Part shown: positions 2,466 to 21,089 of the stretch, in pieces
Layout of the letters: each line of letters starts with the position of its first letter
Position numbering within the stretch: position 1 is the first letter of the stretch
Virus record (IMG/VR): IMGVR_UViG_3300022707_000362
Location: 1 to 21,089 of that record
DNA length: 21,089 bases
Reading direction: 5' to 3' (one strand)
Source of the DNA: a virus
Translations under genes and position numbers: made by a program
Notes under the pieces: model-generated
The model's input: the letters and a program-made list of their open reading frames with translations, nothing else
What the model was told of the DNA's origin: nothing
Database searches by the model: none

Positions 2466-2669
2466 ATGGCAATGATAAACGGTAAAGAAGTAGGTGAGAT
2501 AAAAATATTTATTGGAGGCAAGGAAATTAAAGGAGTGAAGTCGATTAATTACACGCCACAGTACAAGTTATATTATGACTTAAGACCGATATGGCCTAAA
2601 GTTCCTTTAAAGCGATTAGAGCCTAGTATTATAGAAGTTCTGGCAACAGGTATGCACCACGATAATTAA
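2466..2669 (+). CDS. Hypothetical protein directly upstream of terminase, 67 aa
   Basis: A 67-residue mostly beta protein: MAMINGKEVGEIKIFIGGKE reads as paired strands with tight Gly turns, followed by a Tyr-rich segment (YTPQYKLYYDLRP). Its TAA overlaps the ATG of the terminase large subunit by one base (TAATG at 2667-2671). In many phages this place holds the terminase small subunit, but this product lacks the N-terminal helix-turn-helix and is too short, so I do not call it that. Tight coupling suggests its level is tied to terminase. Confidence 0.55.
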   Translation: MAMINGKEVGEIKIFIGGKEIKGVKSINYTPQYKLYYDLRPIWPKVPLKRLEPSIIEVLATGMHHDN

Positions 2670-5185
2670 TGAACCAACCCACCGAGCAAGTACTATTCGA
2701 CATATCCAACTTCCCGACGGCTAAACTATTTATCGATGCGTGTCTAAGTGGAAAATATAGTGTAGTAGTATACGGAGGTGCAGTTCGAGGTGGTAAAGCG
2801 AATCCTCTTGATTCAGAGATAGTTACCCCGTTTGGAGTGCGCACAATGGGAGACATGAAAATAGGCTCTCAAGTGTCTAATCCTGATGGCACAATAAGCC
2901 GAGTTATTGCAGTACACCCACAAGGCAAAAAGGAAATATACGAGGTTAAATTTGTAGACGGCACTAGCGTTGAATGTTGCGGCGAACACCTTTGGAATTA
3001 TCACAGGAACGAAACTAAGGTTAAAGCCAAAAGGGAATACGGCCTTTGGAAAACAGCAACGATACTACAGATGAAGAAAATGATGGAGACAACAAATGTT
3101 TCTATTCCTATCACTAAGCCTGTAATATTCACAAGAGGTAAAAAGATGCCTATTGACCCATACTTGCTAGGTCTTATTTTGGGTGACGGATGCATAACAC
3201 AGCCTAGTTCCATTTTATATTCAAGCAATGACCAGTTTTTAATTGATGAAATAAGCAAGTTAGTTACGCGGGTTTCTGTGTATAAAGATTACAACTATAG
3301 AATTATAGACGACAAACTAAAGGAGGACTTAAGGAAATTTGGACTCATGGGATGCGATAGCGAAACTAAATTTATTCCCAATATTTATTTGCATTCATCT
3401 ATCGCTGAAAGGGAGGAAATCGTTAAGGGATTAATGGATACTGACGGGTATATGGATGACCGAGGCCACGCGGAATATACTACGGTGAGTAAACAGCTAT
3501 GTGATGGAATGGTATTTATGCTTCGAAGTTTAGGTTATAAGGTTACGATCTCATCTAAAATAGGCTCATACAAAAAGAACGGGGTAAGAATAATGTGTAA
3601 GTTGGCCTACAGATTATACATTCAATCAGATAACAATATTGAACTATTTAAATTAGAAAGGAAACGCGCCCGATCTTACCAATGTAGATACGAAAGAAAG
3701 AAGCGAATACTATCAATAGAAAAGATCGGTAAAAAAGAGTGCCAGTGCATAACCGTAGATAATCCTAACGGGCTTTATATCACAAATGGATTCAACGTAA
3801 CACACAACTCATTCAACGGTATAGGCGCTTTAGTTCTCTTACATGCACTCTATCCACAAAGCCGCTCATGTATCATTAGAAAGGACGCCGAGGTGCTTAG
3901 AATCAATACCCTACCAACGTGTCAAAAAGCTATTCCAACAAGCGCGATAAAACAATATAACGGATCAGAAAACAAATGGACGTTTCACAATGGTTCTTCA
4001 ATGTTTTTCTTTGCCGAGGGTTACGAAAAGGACAAGGACTTAAACAGGTGGAACGGGTTAGAAGTTAATTTTATCATGATGGATCAAGTGGAAGAACTTC
4101 AATTCGACGCATGGGAGAAAGCAAATGAGCGTGTTGGGTCTTACTTCATACCAAAGAATTTAGGCAAACAACCTAAGCCGCTTATTATAATGACGGTCAA
4201 CCCTACTCAAACATGGGTGAAAGAAGAAATTTACGATAGGTACATGGACGGTACACTGCCTAAAGATTGGCTTTACATACCCGCCAAAGTAACCGATAAC
4301 CCACACGTAGAGCAAAGCTATTTAGATCAGTTAAATAACTTAAAGAAGATCAACCCAATAAAACACCAACGCTTTGTAATGGGTGATTGGGAAATACAAG
4401 ATAATGTAGACGGGGCGTTTTATAGTTCTTTTGATTATGACAAGCATGTAGGATCAAGCAAAGACGACTTATCAGTTTATTACGAACCAGAATTAGCCTT
4501 ACAAATAACATTTGATTTCAATCTTAAACCTTACATGACTCTGTTAATATGGCAATTTGATTTTGAAGACCCCGACACAGTACAGGGCAGACTACCAAGA
4601 AAGAAGCTAAATCAAATAGATGAGTTTTGCTTTGCACCTGACAAAAATAGCACAGCCCACGTTTGTAGAGCATTTAAAGCAAAGTACTACGATCATGAAA
4701 ACGGTGTGTTTTATTACGGTGACCCAATGGGAAAGAAGGATGACACAGCCACCGAGAAAGGATTTAATAACTATACGGTTATCAAAAAGGAACTCAAACA
4801 CTTTCATCCAAAAGAGCGAGTAGATAGGGCAGCTCCACCAGTAGCACCAAGGGGTGAATTTATCAATACCATATTTAGGAATCAACCAGAAAAGGACGAC
4901 CCCGAAGGAGTAGGGTATCTAGGCTTAGAAATACATATCGATGTAGATTGCAAAAAGAGTATTATGGATTTAACTAATGTGCTAGAAGATGCCGACGGTA
5001 GCAAGATGAAAAAGAACACTACCGATAAGAAAACCAAGATAGCAACTAGGCTGCTGACTCACACAAGTGACGCCATGGAGTATATGATAATGAGAGCGTT
5101 ACGAAGAGAATTCAAAGAGCATCAAAGGGGAGACGTAACCAGTGCGCATTTCCACATACCAGAGACGAGAAGCACTAGATTTTGA
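2669..5185 (+). CDS. terL: Terminase large subunit with class 3 intein (precursor, 838 aa)
   Basis: Motor of DNA packaging: an ATPase plus RuvC/RNase H-like nuclease that docks on the portal. Removing the intein (residues 44-380) leaves 501 residues, the usual size. The ATPase domain begins with the P-loop around residues 36-43 (GGAVRGGK), completed by Ser381 after splicing. Walker B is around residues 467-472 (NFIMMD, D472), followed by Q473 then acidic E475/E476; the coupling motif is MTVNPTQ at 508-514. Nuclease acidic residues are probably D616 (ITFDFN), D685 (YYGDPMG) and D801 (HTSDAMEY). The start overlaps the preceding stop by one base. The gene ends 29 bases before a tRNA gene, and the promoter of that tRNA overlaps its stop codon. 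ATPase and nuclease motifs make the assignment secure. Confidence 0.95.
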   Translation: MNQPTEQVLFDISNFPTAKLFIDACLSGKYSVVVYGGAVRGGKANPLDSEIVTPFGVRTMGDMKIGSQVSNPDGTISRVIAVHPQGKKEIYEVKFVDGTSVECCGEHLWNYHRNETKVKAKREYGLWKTATILQMKKMMETTNVSIPITKPVIFTRGKKMPIDPYLLGLILGDGCITQPSSILYSSNDQFLIDEISKLVTRVSVYKDYNYRIIDDKLKEDLRKFGLMGCDSETKFIPNIYLHSSIAEREEIVKGLMDTDGYMDDRGHAEYTTVSKQLCDGMVFMLRSLGYKVTISSKIGSYKKNGVRIMCKLAYRLYIQSDNNIELFKLERKRARSYQCRYERKKRILSIEKIGKKECQCITVDNPNGLYITNGFNVTHNSFNGIGALVLLHALYPQSRSCIIRKDAEVLRINTLPTCQKAIPTSAIKQYNGSENKWTFHNGSSMFFFAEGYEKDKDLNRWNGLEVNFIMMDQVEELQFDAWEKANERVGSYFIPKNLGKQPKPLIIMTVNPTQTWVKEEIYDRYMDGTLPKDWLYIPAKVTDNPHVEQSYLDQLNNLKKINPIKHQRFVMGDWEIQDNVDGAFYSSFDYDKHVGSSKDDLSVYYEPELALQITFDFNLKPYMTLLIWQFDFEDPDTVQGRLPRKKLNQIDEFCFAPDKNSTAHVCRAFKAKYYDHENGVFYYGDPMGKKDDTATEKGFNNYTVIKKELKHFHPKERVDRAAPPVAPRGEFINTIFRNQPEKDDPEGVGYLGLEIHIDVDCKKSIMDLTNVLEDADGSKMKKNTTDKKTKIATRLLTHTSDAMEYMIMRALRREFKEHQRGDVTSAHFHIPETRSTRF
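2798..3808 (+). mobile_element. Intein with LAGLIDADG homing endonuclease inside the terminase P-loop (class 3 signature)
   Basis: In-frame protein intron encoding residues 44-380 (337 aa) of the precursor. The N-terminal splice junction is K43|A44 (sequence GGK|ANPLDSE) and the C-terminal one N380|S381 (THN|S). Residue 1 is Ala, so it cannot start splicing the usual way. Instead it has the class 3 triplet: W109 at block B position 12 (ECCGEHLW, with H107 at B:10), C360 at block F position 4 (ECQCITVD, where Asp is usual) and T378 at block G position 5 (VTHN). Family knowledge says the block F Cys then attacks the N-terminal junction. Endonuclease motifs are LLGLILGDG (166-174, D173) and KGLMDTDGY (253-261, D259), both with acidic residues kept, so it may still be a functional homing endonuclease. 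H379 and N380, needed for Asn cyclisation, are present. Confidence 0.92.
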
Positions 5186-6228: not shown

Positions 6229-6516
6229 ATGACAAAATCAGAAATAGTAGAAGAAATAACTAAAGCAACAGGGCTAGAGAATCCTGTAGTATCGGCTGTA
6301 GTAAATGAGTTCATGACACAAGTAAAGAAAGCGAATTCTAAAGACATAAATATCTATCTTAGGGGCTTTGGTTCCTTCGAAGCTAAGACAAGAAAACAGA
6401 AGGTAGGGCGTAACATAACGGCAAACACGCCCCTTGTTATACCCGCTCAAAAGATACCATTTTTCAAGCCTTGTCCTGAGTATAAGGCTTTGTTAAAATC
6501 TATACCTTTAAATTAA
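6229..6516 (+). CDS. HU/IHF-family DNA-binding protein
   Basis: DNA-bending nucleoid-type protein of 95 residues, the normal HU size. Helices at the N-terminus (KSEIVEEITKATGL and PVVSAVVNEFMTQV) form the dimer body; the signature GFGSFEAKTR (46-55) and arm region VGRN...IPAQKIPFFKP (59-81) are clear. In classical HU/IHF the arm tip carries RNP, whose Pro intercalates in DNA; here R61-N62 is followed by Ile63, so intercalation may be weaker or different. Phage copies commonly help packaging, recombination or gene regulation. The gene is 10 bases after its upstream neighbour. Confidence 0.92.
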   Translation: MTKSEIVEEITKATGLENPVVSAVVNEFMTQVKKANSKDINIYLRGFGSFEAKTRKQKVGRNITANTPLVIPAQKIPFFKPCPEYKALLKSIPLN

Positions 6517-7881: not shown

Positions 7882-8505
7882 ATGAGCCTAGAATACCATA
7901 GCAAAAGCAATATCGGTGTATATCAGATATTAAATTTAGTAACCAAAGAATCGTACATAGGCAGTTCTAGGAACGTAAAAAAGAGACTCCTTCAACACAA
8001 GTCTACAATTATTGGCAATAAGCATCATAGTAAGATTGTTCAATCGGCGGTAGACAAGTATGGCATTAGTAAGTTTTCTTTCCGTCAAGTAGCATCTTGC
8101 CCTTTAGAATATCTGCCTAAAATGGAACAGTGGTTTATTGATAATACAAATTCCAAATACAATGAATTAAGGTTTGCGCATTCAATGAAAGGATTTAACC
8201 ATAGTGAAGACACCAAGAGAAGAATAAGTGATGCGTCAAAGAACAGACCCCCTATAAGCGAAGAGACAAGAAGAAAAATGAGCGAAGCCAAAAAGAATAG
8301 AGTGGTATCAAAGGCAACGAGAAAAAAAATAGGCGAGGATTCAGCATTAAGATTGAGGAAAAAGACAAAATGCCTAACTACTGGAAAAACATTCAACTCA
8401 GCAAAAGAAGCGGCACAAGAAATGAGTTTATGCAGGGTTGCCGTTGGGGAGTCTTGCAGGAATGGAAGATTAATTTATGGAATTTATAAATTTGAGTACG
8501 TATGA
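7882..8505 (+). CDS. GIY-YIG homing endonuclease with NUMOD repeats
   Basis: Free-standing homing endonuclease, 207 aa. The catalytic domain shows GVY (12-14) and YIG (25-27) for the GIY and YIG motifs, catalytic Arg R35 (VKKR), and Glu E82 (MEQW). Next come three NUMOD3-like DNA-binding repeats: HSEDTKRRISDASKNRP (107-123), ISEETRRKMSEAKKNR (125-140) and a third at about 142-160. A C-terminal NUMOD1/IENR1-like module spans about 164-205 (CLTTGKTFNSAKEAAQEMS). This is the normal I-TevI-type layout. It is placed neatly between two structural genes: three bases after the previous stop, and its TGA overlaps the next start, so it seems to have inserted without hurting expression. All key residues are present. 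Confidence 0.92.
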   Translation: MSLEYHSKSNIGVYQILNLVTKESYIGSSRNVKKRLLQHKSTIIGNKHHSKIVQSAVDKYGISKFSFRQVASCPLEYLPKMEQWFIDNTNSKYNELRFAHSMKGFNHSEDTKRRISDASKNRPPISEETRRKMSEAKKNRVVSKATRKKIGEDSALRLRKKTKCLTTGKTFNSAKEAAQEMSLCRVAVGESCRNGRLIYGIYKFEYV

Positions 8506-9569
8506 GTTTTTTGCGGTTCAGAGATTATTTTACACGTATAAGAGAGAAGGACTTTGATACTATTTTAGCTCAAATAGGTCAATCTACTGCTCACTCACCA
8601 ACTACAATAAGACAAGAAGAGGAAAAGAATACCATAGCGGAAATATCGGCAATGATTTGCCACAGATACGACGTCGAAAAAATCTTTGTTGATATACTGC
8701 CTTGGAACATACTCACTCAATTTAATATAGGTGAACTAGTCGAGTATTCACAACCTGCTTACAGTGATTCAAAAACTTACATTCTAAACGATCTAGTCAG
8801 CTTTCAAACAACTTCAAACGGGGTTATTTCTGACGACATTTACATCAATACTTTAGCCATACCAGCGCCAGAAGTATTCAACCCTTTGAAATGGACTAAG
8901 CAAGAAGAAAACTTTGCTTTATACACGGTTAAGGAGCCTATTATAACGGCTAATCCTTCTGCTGGGTTCTCTTACGATACCAACTTATTTACAGGCAACC
9001 ACGACACTATAAAAGGATGGGATACAACTAAAGATATCTTCTTAAAGCGAGATGCTAACGAAGTTAAGATTTATTACAGTTCAGCAGACCGAACAAACAA
9101 TGTTGATTCAATTGGCGTGGTTGATGTAACCGACCAAGTAAAAACTTTCCCTTCTAATATCCCAATCGAGGCTGGCGATGATTTAGAAAACACATTAAGC
9201 GGTACTTTATTTATAATTGGCTTCATGCCAGACGGTCAAGAGTGGAGCGTAGTAGCTTCGAACGCTTACCAGAAAGAAGACTTTAGAAGTAGATTGATAG
9301 TCTCTATAATGATTGATTTAGTCTTGTTTAATCTGTACGGACTGGTAGCCCAAAGGAACGTACCTGATTTTATCGGCGAAAGAATGGAGCGTGCTATGGC
9401 GGCATTAAAAGACATTAAAAAAGGAGTCACTACACCTAAATTACCACTGTATGACGACGAAACAAGAGGCCAACAAATAGCTTTTGGAAGTGAGCGAAGA
9501 GTAGAGCATACTTTATTCAGAACCCACGACCCTAACAGAAGAAAATCAAGAGGTACATGGGACTATTAA
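8502..9569 (+). CDS. Mu gp36-like (DUF1320) head-tail connector with inserted binding module
   Basis: A 355-residue structural protein. The C-terminal part, residues 256-315 (from KEDFRSRLIVSIMIDLVLF to the GVTTPKLP end), has the helical pattern and terminal 'RMERAMAALKDIKKG' motif of Mu gp36/DUF1320 connector-type proteins. The N-terminal 80 residues (RFRDYFTRIREKDFDTILAQ) begin this fold, and residues about 85-135 carry a chitin-binding-like module (Y-x-x-x-K-T-Y ... W131). The insert makes the protein about 200 residues longer than typical gp36-like proteins. Its place upstream of the portal, not downstream of the capsid gene as in Mu, is unusual. The start is coupled to the GIY-YIG stop. 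Confidence 0.7.
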   Translation: MSFLRFRDYFTRIREKDFDTILAQIGQSTAHSPTTIRQEEEKNTIAEISAMICHRYDVEKIFVDILPWNILTQFNIGELVEYSQPAYSDSKTYILNDLVSFQTTSNGVISDDIYINTLAIPAPEVFNPLKWTKQEENFALYTVKEPIITANPSAGFSYDTNLFTGNHDTIKGWDTTKDIFLKRDANEVKIYYSSADRTNNVDSIGVVDVTDQVKTFPSNIPIEAGDDLENTLSGTLFIIGFMPDGQEWSVVASNAYQKEDFRSRLIVSIMIDLVLFNLYGLVAQRNVPDFIGERMERAMAALKDIKKGVTTPKLPLYDDETRGQQIAFGSERRVEHTLFRTHDPNRRKSRGTWDY

Positions 9570-9730: not shown

Positions 9731-10955
9731 TAGGCTCAACCCAAAGATTGTAAACGAACACAGGAAGCAGCCCAAAAAGTCGCGTATTGTTGTTCAGTTA
9801 GACAATCGAAACAGGCAACGAAAGGTTGACGACTTAGCCGATTGGTCAAGAGCTTTGAATTTAGCCGAACGAAGAGACGACCCAGACCGTACAGAGCTTA
9901 TCAGGATTTACAAAAATATGCGTATCGACGGGCATATCAACGGAATCATAACGACCCTTATAAACAAGATCAAAGCAAAGGATTTCTTACTAGTTGATTC
10001 ACAAGGGAACGAAGATGAAGAGTCAAAAGCATTATTCGAAAGCAAGTGGTTTCAGAAGTATTTAAAATGGAATGTAGAAGCGCCGTTTGAAGGGTTTAGT
10101 CTTATTCAGTTAAACGATATGGTAGATGGTCAATTCAAGGACATGGAATTAGTTGATAGAGAATTTGTGATACCTGATTTAGGCATTATAAAAAAGTTTG
10201 ATACTAGATTTTCGGGTGACGATCAGCATTGGGTTTATAATGAAGGTGCATTAAAAGATTGGTTTATTTTCATAGGTGAAGACAAGGACTTAGGCTTATT
10301 CAACGCAATCGCACCTCAAGCGATTTCTAAAAAACACATCTACTCGGCTCTTTGGCAGTTTATAGAACTGTTTGGCATGCCTCTTAGGATTGGTAAAACC
10401 GATTTAGACGACCCTAAAGAGAAGCAGAACATGATTGACATGTTAGGCGGTATGGGTCGTGCTGGTTGGGGAGTGTTTGGTAGTAATGATGAAATAGAAT
10501 ACACCGAGTCTGTTAACGGCGCTGTAGAGACTTTCACTGAGGCAATTAGGTCTTCCAATCAAGAGATGAGTAAGAACATGACAGGCGTATCAGGTCTATT
10601 CGATGACAAAGCATTTGTAGGCAGCGCCGAGGCACAAGAGAGAGTAGTAAAAGAGCTTATAATGTCCTTCACTCGTACTATTATGTTTGATATCAACGAT
10701 ATGTTAATCCCTCGTATGCAAAAACAAGGTTCTTTTCCTGATCGCAAATTTATATGGAAAGCTGACGACCTATTAAGCACAGTTGAAAAAGGCGACTTAA
10801 TAACTTCATTGGCTCCATTTTTCGAGTTCACACCAGATGTAATATTGAAAGAATTAGGCATAGAAGTAGAGGCGCCAAAGGTAGCACCGAACACAGAGGC
10901 GGCAACGGTAGCTTCTCAAGTGGCAGCATTGTATAAAACTAAAAAGAATAAGTAA
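9714..10955 (+). CDS. Portal protein (DUF935 / Mu gp29-like)
   Basis: Twelve-fold ring at the packaging vertex, through which DNA enters and leaves. The 413-residue protein shows the DUF935 pattern: an N-terminal region with RTELIRIYKNMRIDGHING, the helix-strand core around AISKKHIYSALWQFIELFG with MPLRIGKTDLDD, then a loop around FGSNDEIEYTESVNG and the 'SSNQEMSKNMTG' C-terminal helix region. It is shorter than Mu gp29 (about 512 aa). Its TAA overlaps the next start by one base (TAATG at 10953-10957). It starts 17 bases within the membrane ORF. Assignment is by family pattern. Confidence 0.88.
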   Translation: MKDVNNRLNPKIVNEHRKQPKKSRIVVQLDNRNRQRKVDDLADWSRALNLAERRDDPDRTELIRIYKNMRIDGHINGIITTLINKIKAKDFLLVDSQGNEDEESKALFESKWFQKYLKWNVEAPFEGFSLIQLNDMVDGQFKDMELVDREFVIPDLGIIKKFDTRFSGDDQHWVYNEGALKDWFIFIGEDKDLGLFNAIAPQAISKKHIYSALWQFIELFGMPLRIGKTDLDDPKEKQNMIDMLGGMGRAGWGVFGSNDEIEYTESVNGAVETFTEAIRSSNQEMSKNMTGVSGLFDDKAFVGSAEAQERVVKELIMSFTRTIMFDINDMLIPRMQKQGSFPDRKFIWKADDLLSTVEKGDLITSLAPFFEFTPDVILKELGIEVEAPKVAPNTEAATVASQVAALYKTKKNK

Positions 10956-12016
10956 TGTCGAGAACAATCAAAGAAATTCACGATGCAATGATACTCGAAA
11001 AGGAGACGGCGGCAGAATTAAACAGTTTAACGCCTAAGCCCGATAGTGCGCAAAACTTATTAGACGACTTGTCTTCACCTTCTAAGGTTGCGGTATGGCG
11101 AACTTTCTTTCGTATTGTAGCCACTTCCGAAAAGTTCCACGAAGATTTATTTGACACTTTCGCCGACCTTGTAGAAGCAAGAGCATTAGAAATTATACCC
11201 CAAACAGATCGAAGGTTAGCGATATTGGCGAAAGAGTTTCAATTTGGTGATGAACTTATTTTTGATCCTTTAACAGGCAACTTTATTTACGAAGACACAA
11301 CAAGCTCGGACGCTTTAGAAAGACAAATCGTTTCACAAGCAAGCGTAAACAGTGCTAACAGAGTAGTAACTTACAAGGTGGCTAAAGATGACGGAGGTGG
11401 AGGTCTAGAGGGGCTTGACGCAGCCGAACAAACTTCATTTGCAACCTTTGTAGATGACACTATTGTATCTGGCACCAAAGTAATTATTATTTCATCGGAT
11501 GCGGACTTTTTAAAAGTGGCCTACACTATTCAATACGACCCATTAGTACTAAAAGCTGATGGTAGTTTAATTGATGACGGTTCTTTTCCAGTTCAAGAGG
11601 CTATTGACGCTTATATTCAAGGCTTAGATTTCAATGGTGCGTTTAGAGTTATAGATTTAACCGACGCAATACAAGACGCGAGGGGTGTTGTTAATGCAGT
11701 AGCAGACGTAGTAGAAGCAAGGGACGCAGTGGCAGGTTACACCAATATTTTAGGGTTACAAACGGAAACATTTTTACCTTTTTCAGGACACTTGCGTACG
11801 GTAGATGAAACAGGTAGCGAGGCGGTACCAGTTTATGGAAGTATCCCGATTCTTTCAGCACCCGTATATGACGCGACAATTTCTTTCAATTCGGGTCAAT
11901 TCGCAGTGTTCGAAGGAGTAACATACAAGGCTAATGCAGATACGTCAGAGCCAGCAGGCACATTCGACACTACAATATGGGACACAGTTTCTAACATAAC
12001 ATTTATAGCGGGCTAA
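10955..12016 (+). CDS. Baseplate J-like protein with C-terminal chitin-binding-like module
   Basis: A 353-residue probable baseplate wedge protein. The N-terminal region (SSPSKVAVWRTFFRIVAT, about 40-57) is a pattern I associate with Bacteroidota baseplate J-like proteins, and residues 211-246 (PVQEAIDAYIQGLDFNGAF then LTDAIQDARGV) form the typical J motif. The 'GTKVIIIS...LKVAYTIQYDP' segment at 173-196 is the preceding strand region. Residues about 303-346 add a module with YDATISFNSGQFAVFEGVTY and W342, like carbohydrate-binding families 5/12. J-like proteins lie at the baseplate of contractile tails. One-base overlaps join it to both neighbours. Confidence 0.75.
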   Translation: MSRTIKEIHDAMILEKETAAELNSLTPKPDSAQNLLDDLSSPSKVAVWRTFFRIVATSEKFHEDLFDTFADLVEARALEIIPQTDRRLAILAKEFQFGDELIFDPLTGNFIYEDTTSSDALERQIVSQASVNSANRVVTYKVAKDDGGGGLEGLDAAEQTSFATFVDDTIVSGTKVIIISSDADFLKVAYTIQYDPLVLKADGSLIDDGSFPVQEAIDAYIQGLDFNGAFRVIDLTDAIQDARGVVNAVADVVEARDAVAGYTNILGLQTETFLPFSGHLRTVDETGSEAVPVYGSIPILSAPVYDATISFNSGQFAVFEGVTYKANADTSEPAGTFDTTIWDTVSNITFIAG

Positions 12017-12846
12017 TGTTTAAAATAAACTTTAAAGATTTATCGACCCAGCTTTCACCGCACTTTTTTAGGCAGCCTATCTATCTTAAATATCTATTCT
12101 CGCTGATTAAACCGCTTTCGGACATAAACGATAACGGCAATCCTGTGATGTTTTTCAATCAAGGCAATTTATCTAACACGGAGTACAAAGGAATATACAG
12201 CGACCAAAAAACATACAGCATAGGTAACCGAGTATTATTTGAGGGAGTGGCCTATAAGAACATAGTAAACATTACCACGCCAGAAGCATTTACCGAAGCG
12301 AATTGGATAAGAAGTACTAATAGATCGTTCTTTCCACTCACTATTTTTATCACAAGGTTTCTACAGGTGGACGCTTCTAGGTTAAAACTACAAAAGTATT
12401 TAAATGAATTATGGGACTCTACAAACGAAGGAATATTGATAGTTAACAATCCCACTGTAGATGTTTTATATAGGTTCAATAACGCGGAACAGCATGATGA
12501 TGAATTTGATTATAATGCTTGGGATTCTACGGTTGATTATGCAGCAACAGGTGAATTTGTACTGGCTAATGACGGTAATGTGTACGAATCAAACACGAAT
12601 CCAAATTTAAACAATGAACCGCCTAGTGCAGAATGGGATTTAATCAGTACAGCAAAGGAATACATGTTTAACGAGGCCGACGAATACACAGCGGACTATA
12701 CCGTGAAGATACCCATACTAGTGACACTACAACCTGATTATAGTAACGACAGATTTAAGGCAGAATTAGATTTTTTTAACGCAGCAGGCAGAACATACCA
12801 AGGCGTTAAACTTGAAACAAATGAATTTTTATTTTCTAACGTATAG
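12016..12846 (+). CDS. Tail/baseplate-associated protein with two chitin-binding-like modules
   Basis: A 276-residue protein right after the J-like gene, the place where the Mu-like baseplate gene (gp48-type) normally sits. It starts with a helical region (QPIYLKYLFSLIKPLSD) and has a conserved-looking core around 105-145 (FPLTIFITRFLQVDASRL, KYLNELWD). Two modules with the Y-x5-Y...G...V...Y...P...W pattern are at 58-99 (GIYSDQKTYSIGNRVLFEG; W97) and 166-211 (AWDSTVDYAATGEFVLAND; W207). The C-terminal stretch (FFNAAGRTYQGVKL) is strand-rich. Its start overlaps the previous stop by one base; it ends with TAG. Likely a tail-tip protein, by position and modules. Confidence 0.65.
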   Translation: MFKINFKDLSTQLSPHFFRQPIYLKYLFSLIKPLSDINDNGNPVMFFNQGNLSNTEYKGIYSDQKTYSIGNRVLFEGVAYKNIVNITTPEAFTEANWIRSTNRSFFPLTIFITRFLQVDASRLKLQKYLNELWDSTNEGILIVNNPTVDVLYRFNNAEQHDDEFDYNAWDSTVDYAATGEFVLANDGNVYESNTNPNLNNEPPSAEWDLISTAKEYMFNEADEYTADYTVKIPILVTLQPDYSNDRFKAELDFFNAAGRTYQGVKLETNEFLFSNV

Positions 12847-18796: not shown

Positions 18797-19714
18797 ATGG
18801 CATCAACGCAGACATTAACAGAAGACTGGGTAACCGACATTGAAGACATATTGTTCGAGAATGAAAACTCATTTATCACTATGTCAAGAAGTCACGACGA
18901 ATTCGTAAAGAATAAAATAGTACATATCCCACAAGCGGGATCACTGGCAGGGGTAACTAAAAACAGAATAATATTCCCTGCTGTAATAGAGCAGAGAACG
19001 GATGTTACAAATGATTACACGCTAGAGGACTATTCTGTTGACCCTGCATTAGTTGAGGACATTGAAGAAATGCAAAACAGCTATTCTAAACGTGATTCTA
19101 TCCTGTTTGACCACAAGTCTAAACTAAAAGAAGAGATAGCATTAAACACTATGTTTGATTGGGCTGTAACCGATTCATCTCAAATCGTTAGGACTACAGG
19201 TTCAGCCATTGTAGGCAATGCACCAGTTGGAGCTACAGGAACTAGATTGGCATTTACACTTAATGACTTGATTAATTTAAGTGCAAACTTGGATTTACAA
19301 TTAATACCAGACGACGGTAGACGTGTTTTATTGCTGCCTACTAGAATGTACAATGATTTATTCAGAGACCCTCAATTAGTCACTATTGATACTATGAATA
19401 AGAAATCTCTACCTACAGGCGTACACGCGGGTATAATGGGATTCAATATTATCAAGAGGAGTTTTGTTGTAAACTACGATTCAGGAGCAACCGCATTAAA
19501 CCCAATTGGCGGCGCTGTAAGCGGCACTGATAATTCGGGAGGTATTGCATGGCACCCTGACTTTGTTACCAAAGCATTAGGTTCTATCAAGGTATTCTTT
19601 GAAGAAGATTCACCTATCTATTTTGGCGATATCCTTTCTTCTCAAGTTCTATTTAAAGCACACTTTATGAGAACAGGCAAAGTAGGAATTGCAGGCATCG
19701 TACAGGCGAATTAA
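18797..19714 (+). CDS. Major capsid protein
   Basis: A 305-residue protein after the scaffold/protease and decoration genes, the order typical of Mu-like phages (Mu T also is about 305 residues). Sequence segments fit an HK97-fold coat: an N-terminal helix (TLTEDWVTDIEDILFENE), an E-loop-like strand part (KIVHIPQAGSLAGVTKN, FPAVIEQRTDVTNDYTLEDY), a long spine helix (MQNSYSKRDSILFDHKSKLK then EEIALNTMFDWAV), P-domain-like region with 'DDGRRVLLLPTRMYNDLFRD', and a C-terminal strand (FKAHFMRTGKVGIAGIVQAN). Assignment is by context plus this pattern; the exact coat family is not fixed. An A/T-rich leader without a Shine-Dalgarno site precedes it. Confidence 0.85.
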   Translation: MASTQTLTEDWVTDIEDILFENENSFITMSRSHDEFVKNKIVHIPQAGSLAGVTKNRIIFPAVIEQRTDVTNDYTLEDYSVDPALVEDIEEMQNSYSKRDSILFDHKSKLKEEIALNTMFDWAVTDSSQIVRTTGSAIVGNAPVGATGTRLAFTLNDLINLSANLDLQLIPDDGRRVLLLPTRMYNDLFRDPQLVTIDTMNKKSLPTGVHAGIMGFNIIKRSFVVNYDSGATALNPIGGAVSGTDNSGGIAWHPDFVTKALGSIKVFFEEDSPIYFGDILSSQVLFKAHFMRTGKVGIAGIVQAN

Positions 19715-20135: not shown

Positions 20136-21056
20136 ATGGGCAAAATAACATTTAACAGAACAGAGGGAGGTTTAGGCCGAAAACTTACGGGTGAAGACCA
20201 TTTATCAGCTTTAATTAATTATACTGCTGGGAGTTTGCCCGCTGGCTATACAGCGTCAGACCGTATCAAGAAACTATTTAGTTTAGCCGAGGCCGAGAGT
20301 CTTGGAATATTGGACACACACGCGGACGAAACAAAAGGCACAGGTGGTCAAGTTGTGATAGGCGGCACTTGGATAGCAGATGAGACTTGTTCAATAACTA
20401 TCGAGGGGGCTACTTTAGGTTCTCACACAGCCGTTAGTGGTTCGGTTGCAACTACAGATATCGCAGCGGCTTTGGTTATATCTATAAACGCAGGCACTAA
20501 CACGGGATTACTCCACGGCTGGGTAGCTACTTTAAACACATCTACTGTAGAACTAGCACAACCAGCCAAATTAGGTGTAGTTAATAACGGCTCTAACATT
20601 GTATTTGTAGAAGCCTCAGCAGCAGGAACAGGCACACCGACACAATTTACATCAGGTGTAGGCTCTTACTTTGCTGTTATGCATTACCATATTAGCGAAT
20701 ACTTTAGAAACCAACCTAAAGGGGTTTTGCATCACGCTATCTACGCACAAAGTACTTACGACGGAACAGAGATAAAAACGGTTACAGACTTCGCAGGAGG
20801 TGACATTAGACAAACGGGTGTACTTGTAACGCATGAATCATTTGCTTCTAGTCAATTAACGGCTTCGCAATCTGTATTAGATACTCTTTTTACAGAAGAT
20901 GCACCACAAAGCGTAGTGTTTCACTCTGATTTAACTAGTGCTACATTATCAACAGTTCTGTTGTTCTCTATTGTGGCGAAGTCGCTTGTTCTTGTTGTGG
21001 CTGTCCAACTGTCATTAAAGAATGTGCCTGATGAGCCTCTTTGTTTCGAGAGATAG
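20136..21056 (+). CDS. Tail sheath protein (DUF2586-like), 3' part replaced at a junction
   Basis: Contractile tail sheath. The N-terminus (MGKITFNRTEGGLGRKLTGE) and the following region with LINYTAGSLPAGY and IKKLFSLAEAESLGI are the pattern of DUF2586 sheath proteins, and the core HYHISEYFRNQPKG then GGDIRQTGVLVTHE continues it up to about VVFHSDLTSATLST. From about position 20956 the frame turns into an implausible hydrophobic tail (VLLFSIVAKSLVLVVAVQLS) ending at TGA/TAG-bearing sequence 21054-21056. The true C-terminal half is instead visible on the minus strand (see 20921-21088). A full sheath is usually longer than 400 residues, so this ORF is chimeric; only about the first 272 residues are trustworthy. 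Confidence 0.8.
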   Translation: MGKITFNRTEGGLGRKLTGEDHLSALINYTAGSLPAGYTASDRIKKLFSLAEAESLGILDTHADETKGTGGQVVIGGTWIADETCSITIEGATLGSHTAVSGSVATTDIAAALVISINAGTNTGLLHGWVATLNTSTVELAQPAKLGVVNNGSNIVFVEASAAGTGTPTQFTSGVGSYFAVMHYHISEYFRNQPKGVLHHAIYAQSTYDGTEIKTVTDFAGGDIRQTGVLVTHESFASSQLTASQSVLDTLFTEDAPQSVVFHSDLTSATLSTVLLFSIVAKSLVLVVAVQLSLKNVPDEPLCFER

Positions 21057-21088
21057 ATATAACTAAAGTTACTTAGTTGCTCTATTAA
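20921..21088 (-). pseudogene. C-terminal part of the tail sheath, in inverted orientation
   Basis: Read on the minus strand from the window edge, this frame is open for about 55 codons. It starts with LIEQLSNFSYIYLSKQRGSS and continues with GTFFNDSWTATTRTSDFATI and ENNRTVDNV before running into the stop at 20921-20923. The segment with FNDS...TSDxATIENNRT is the pattern of the C-terminal region of DUF2586-like sheath proteins, the very part missing from the + strand ORF at 20136. The homologous part ends near ENNRTVDN; beyond this the frame is the reverse complement of sheath codons on the + strand. It has no start codon of its own inside the window. Confidence 0.7.
20950..20963. repeat. Short palindrome at the inversion junction
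   Basis: CAACAG-TT-CTGTTG: six-base arms separated by TT. On the left side sheath codons run on the + strand, on the right side on the minus strand, so the junction falls in or beside this palindrome. Such short inverted repeats are typical sites of fold-back template switching. Confidence 0.6.
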
Positions 21089-21089
21089 A

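Follow-up and report, generated by a model that had tools for sequence, protein, structure and literature searches.

An inverted join at the end of a Mu-like phage contig, very probably made in vitro, places two pieces of one tail sheath gene on opposite strands

Inverted chimeras are a well-described product of multiple displacement amplification (MDA), where inversions make up more than 85% of chimeras, more than 70% are primed at matches of 2–21 nt, and intramolecular joins are favoured (Lasken and Stockwell 2007, PMC1855051). The overlaps at MDA joins peak at 7 nt, with more than 95% falling at 3–13 nt, and the joined segments lie mainly within 5 knt of each other with a peak at 80–280 nt (PMC5372508). 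Similar chimeras arise during library fragmentation and repair where inverted repeats or imperfect palindromes occur (PMC10908179). The window analysed here, which comprises an entire 21,089-base IMG/VR virus record classed as a “linear” contig, ends in a structure that resembles both. As in the MDA inverted chimeras (PMC1855051), 2 pieces of one locus are joined in opposite orientation, within 1 kb and through a short complementary stretch; those chimeras come from phi29-amplified DNA, and the window is likened to them by sequence alone. It also shares with the chimeric reads of the PDSM model (PMC10908179) an inverted, short reverse-complementary join, here with an imperfect palindrome at the join, but those reads come from human capture libraries, whereas the chimera in the window would have passed into an assembled contig. 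The interrupted gene is one of the Mu-like phage tail sheaths of DUF2586 (PF10758) and PHROG 907, of which the window holds only 2 fragments on opposite strands.

The contig comes from an ordinary Mu-like contractile phage, as identified by its Mu portal and Mu F-like proteins. Its last + strand open reading frame (ORF), at 20136–21056, encodes 306 aa, of which residues 4–274 match the sheaths of related phage contigs, with 77% identity to L002 and 68% to L003. Past residue 274 there is no alignment to these sheath relatives, and at the very edge T273 is conserved while V274 stands against L. The + strand half has no Pfam match on its own; it is assigned to the DUF2586 tail sheaths through the full-length relatives that align to it, which are DUF2586 proteins with E-values of 1e-27 to 1e-31. 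A PDB profile search returned only weak and unconvincing kinase matches. The loss of family-like sequence near 20956, noticed in the original prediction, is thus borne out by an alignment that ends at residue 274 (Table 1).

The sheath resumes on the other strand. Translation of the − strand from 21088 to 20948 gives LIEQLSNFSYIYLSKQRGSSGTFFNDSWTATTRTSDFATIENNRTVD (LIEQLSNF...TSDFATIENNRTVD), which is identical at 31 of 47 positions (66%) to residues 410–456 of the L003 sheath, with a pairwise E-value of 5e-19. The same piece matches Pfam DUF2586 at 5.4e-9 (36.1 bits, above the PF10758 cut-off of 26.4 bits) and the tail sheaths of PHROG 907 at 1.6e-6. The original prediction had read a sheath segment on the minus strand and proposed aligning both strand translations to full-length DUF2586 sheaths; both match. 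Its interval began at 20921, and one correction applies: family-like sequence on the − strand stops at 20946, where GAT is followed by AAT in place of the Lys codon (AAA or AAG) of relatives, and the bases from 20945 to 20921 are the mere complement of the + strand gene.

Table 1. Features at the right end of the 21,089-base window
Feature	Position	Strand	Basis or remark
N-terminal half (native, 273 aa) of a contractile tail sheath of the DUF2586 type	20136–20954	+	68–77% identity to full-length L003 and L002
Deduced junction overlap of about 9 nt, TTATCAACA	20946–20954		Reads as LST codons on + and (T)VDK codons on −; codon comparison with relatives
Inverted segment from further downstream in this sheath gene, about residues 410–457 of the L003 protein	20946–21088	−	Homology
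Imperfect palindrome CAACAG-TT-CTGTTG, CAACAGTTCTGTTG; 6-bp arms, mismatched TT centre	20950–20963		Within native C-terminal codons
Very probably artefactual 135-base tail, not native + strand order	20955–21089	+	Supplies the last 33 codons of the 306-aa ORF, a false C-terminus

In related phages the gene is collinear. We fetched 98 related loci (on 89 contigs, by our own count of contig names) and searched all of them with 6 sheath proteins; an opposite-strand sheath match occurred in 0 of the 98, leaving the window as the sole exception, so that the 2 orientations do not coexist among the relatives. In these phages the 2 sheath pieces share a strand and a single gene, with a product of about 549–560 aa in the 4 nearest, and they are parts of one sheath gene that sit on opposite strands here only. 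The 2 points that meet at the join are 525 nt apart in L003, L002, L018, and L022 alike, and the sheath middle missing from the window amounts to about 129 aa in each of these 4. The middle of the gene had been noted as absent, and from the window it is; a deletion is not needed to explain this, because the flipped strand is heading back toward the middle at the point where the contig stops, and the middle is probably merely unread.

Comparison with the codons of relatives narrows the join to a few bases. On the + strand, native sequence continues to at least 20954, with TTA TCA ACA encoding the conserved LST, and the codon after these, GTT, stands in place of a Leu or Ile of the relatives. 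Native sequence on the − strand reaches 20946 through ACT GTT GAT AA; one base further on, the almost invariant Lys codon is disrupted. About 9 bases therefore fit the gene on both strands, and the join is deduced to pass through an inverted microhomology of TTATCAACA with TGTTGATAA, the length of which, about 9 nt, is read from conserved residues, since the searches yielded no near-identical intact genome. When blunt inverted joins were placed at random within the window, an overlap of at least 9 nt arose in 5 of 100,000 trials (5e-5). These properties agree with those of MDA-type chimeras: the 2 sheath segments are inverted and come from the same locus, the overlap of about 9 nt lies within the 2–21 nt range and its 3–13 nt bulk, and the distance of 525 nt in 4 relatives is well inside about 5 kb. 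IMG/VR contained no exact record of either the tail or the join, and the phage collection contained no similar DNA.

The 14-base palindrome to which the junction had originally been assigned is present, although it is not perfect, and the join is not centred on it. Since it reads on the − strand as the native C-terminal codons AAC AAC AGA ACT GTT GAT, it is not a product of the join. Hairpins of this kind (6 + 6 bp with loops of 0–4) number 21 in the window, or about one per kb. As a cause of the join the palindrome was rejected as unneeded, given its native codons and the frequency of such hairpins; it is probably incidental, though it could have helped a strand to fold.

Support for a fold-back chimera comes from the homology on 2 strands, from the collinear gene in all related loci, from the inverted overlap of 9 nt, and from the location of the join at the end of a contig. 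We consider, with a probability of roughly 0.93, that the inverted join at the contig end is chimeric and arose in vitro, an artefact and not a biological rearrangement. In such a scheme, a single-stranded 3′ end within the sheath gene would pair over about 9 bases, TTATCAACA with TGTTGATAA, either with a different displaced strand or with the strand of which it is itself part. Extension by a polymerase would then yield a product running forward to 20954 and backward from the downstream site, and the assembler would follow the chimeric read or reads beyond the join by roughly the length of a read before stopping. The tail is about as long as one short read, a length that points to one or a few chimeric reads having taken the assembly across the join. 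We infer both the in vitro origin and the responsible step, which may be MDA or library end repair, as either route would give the same product. The fold-back part of the original interpretation therefore stands, while MDA is only one possible cause of it, since library-repair chimeras look the same (PMC10908179).

Joining between molecules, with the tail derived from a different but related phage, would still be an artefact and is very unlikely. L002 is the nearest relative of the plus part (77%) and L003 that of the minus part (66%), as might be expected of 2 sources, but L002 is equally far from the other sheaths in the latter stretch (55–64%), and 47 residues cannot separate the cases. The preference for intramolecular joins (PMC1855051) speaks against a second phage, as does GC content, which is the same in the tail (0.385) as in the contig (0.384).

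Slightly less likely again is a pure assembler error with no chimeric molecule behind it. Wrong extensions by assemblers do occur at contig ends, but no result of the analysis speaks for one here. An overlap of 9 nt is shorter than commonly used k-mers and the sequence is free of Ns, so the join was probably present in at least one read.

It is very improbable that part of the sheath gene has truly been inverted in the phage population, whether by a programmed switch or by accident. The given sequence would be its left join, and phages such as Mu carry invertible tail-fibre segments. Against this, the inversion would cut an essential structural gene, its flipped order occurs in no relative, and the join has only a 9-nt overlap and lies only 135 bases from the contig end. 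No long inverted repeat was found at the join, and no second join in the contig, which contains only this one, the far end being outside view. Least probable of all is that such an inversion turns off virion production in part of the population.

For the fold-back chimera, the consequence is one of quality control only. The last ~130 bases had been flagged as not being in native order, in agreement with the tail delimited here, and the final 135 bases should be trimmed, or conservatively everything from 20946. The 306-aa ORF is unfit for deposit as a complete protein, and the contig illustrates neatly how a false gene end arises when one chimeric molecule forms the end of a contig.

Several other features of the contig deserve mention. 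An in-frame intein that carries a LAGLIDADG homing endonuclease domain splits the terminase large subunit (2669–5185; PF14528 1e-9, PF05204 4e-8, Terminase_3 1e-5); by eye, the intein sits inside the Walker A motif, with GGAVRGGK before it and SFNG after it. A free-standing homing endonuclease of the GIY-YIG type, carrying a NUMOD3 motif, lies amid the structural genes at 7882–8505, and an HU/IHF-like DNA-binding protein gene (6229–6516; PF00216, 3.5e-21) lies between the terminase and the structural genes. The major capsid protein candidate at 18797–19714 is 91% identical to that of L003, compared with 41% for the next gene and 68% for the sheath; this sharp step in divergence suggests either that the capsid gene has recombined or that it is strongly constrained. 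Finally, a motif of the type Y..GD.V.F.G..Y......P....W recurs by eye in several virion genes (8502–9569, 10955–12016, and 12016–12846) and in the sheath middle of L003 and L022, a region unseen in the window, and by eye it resembles a small carbohydrate-binding (CBM5/12-like) module.
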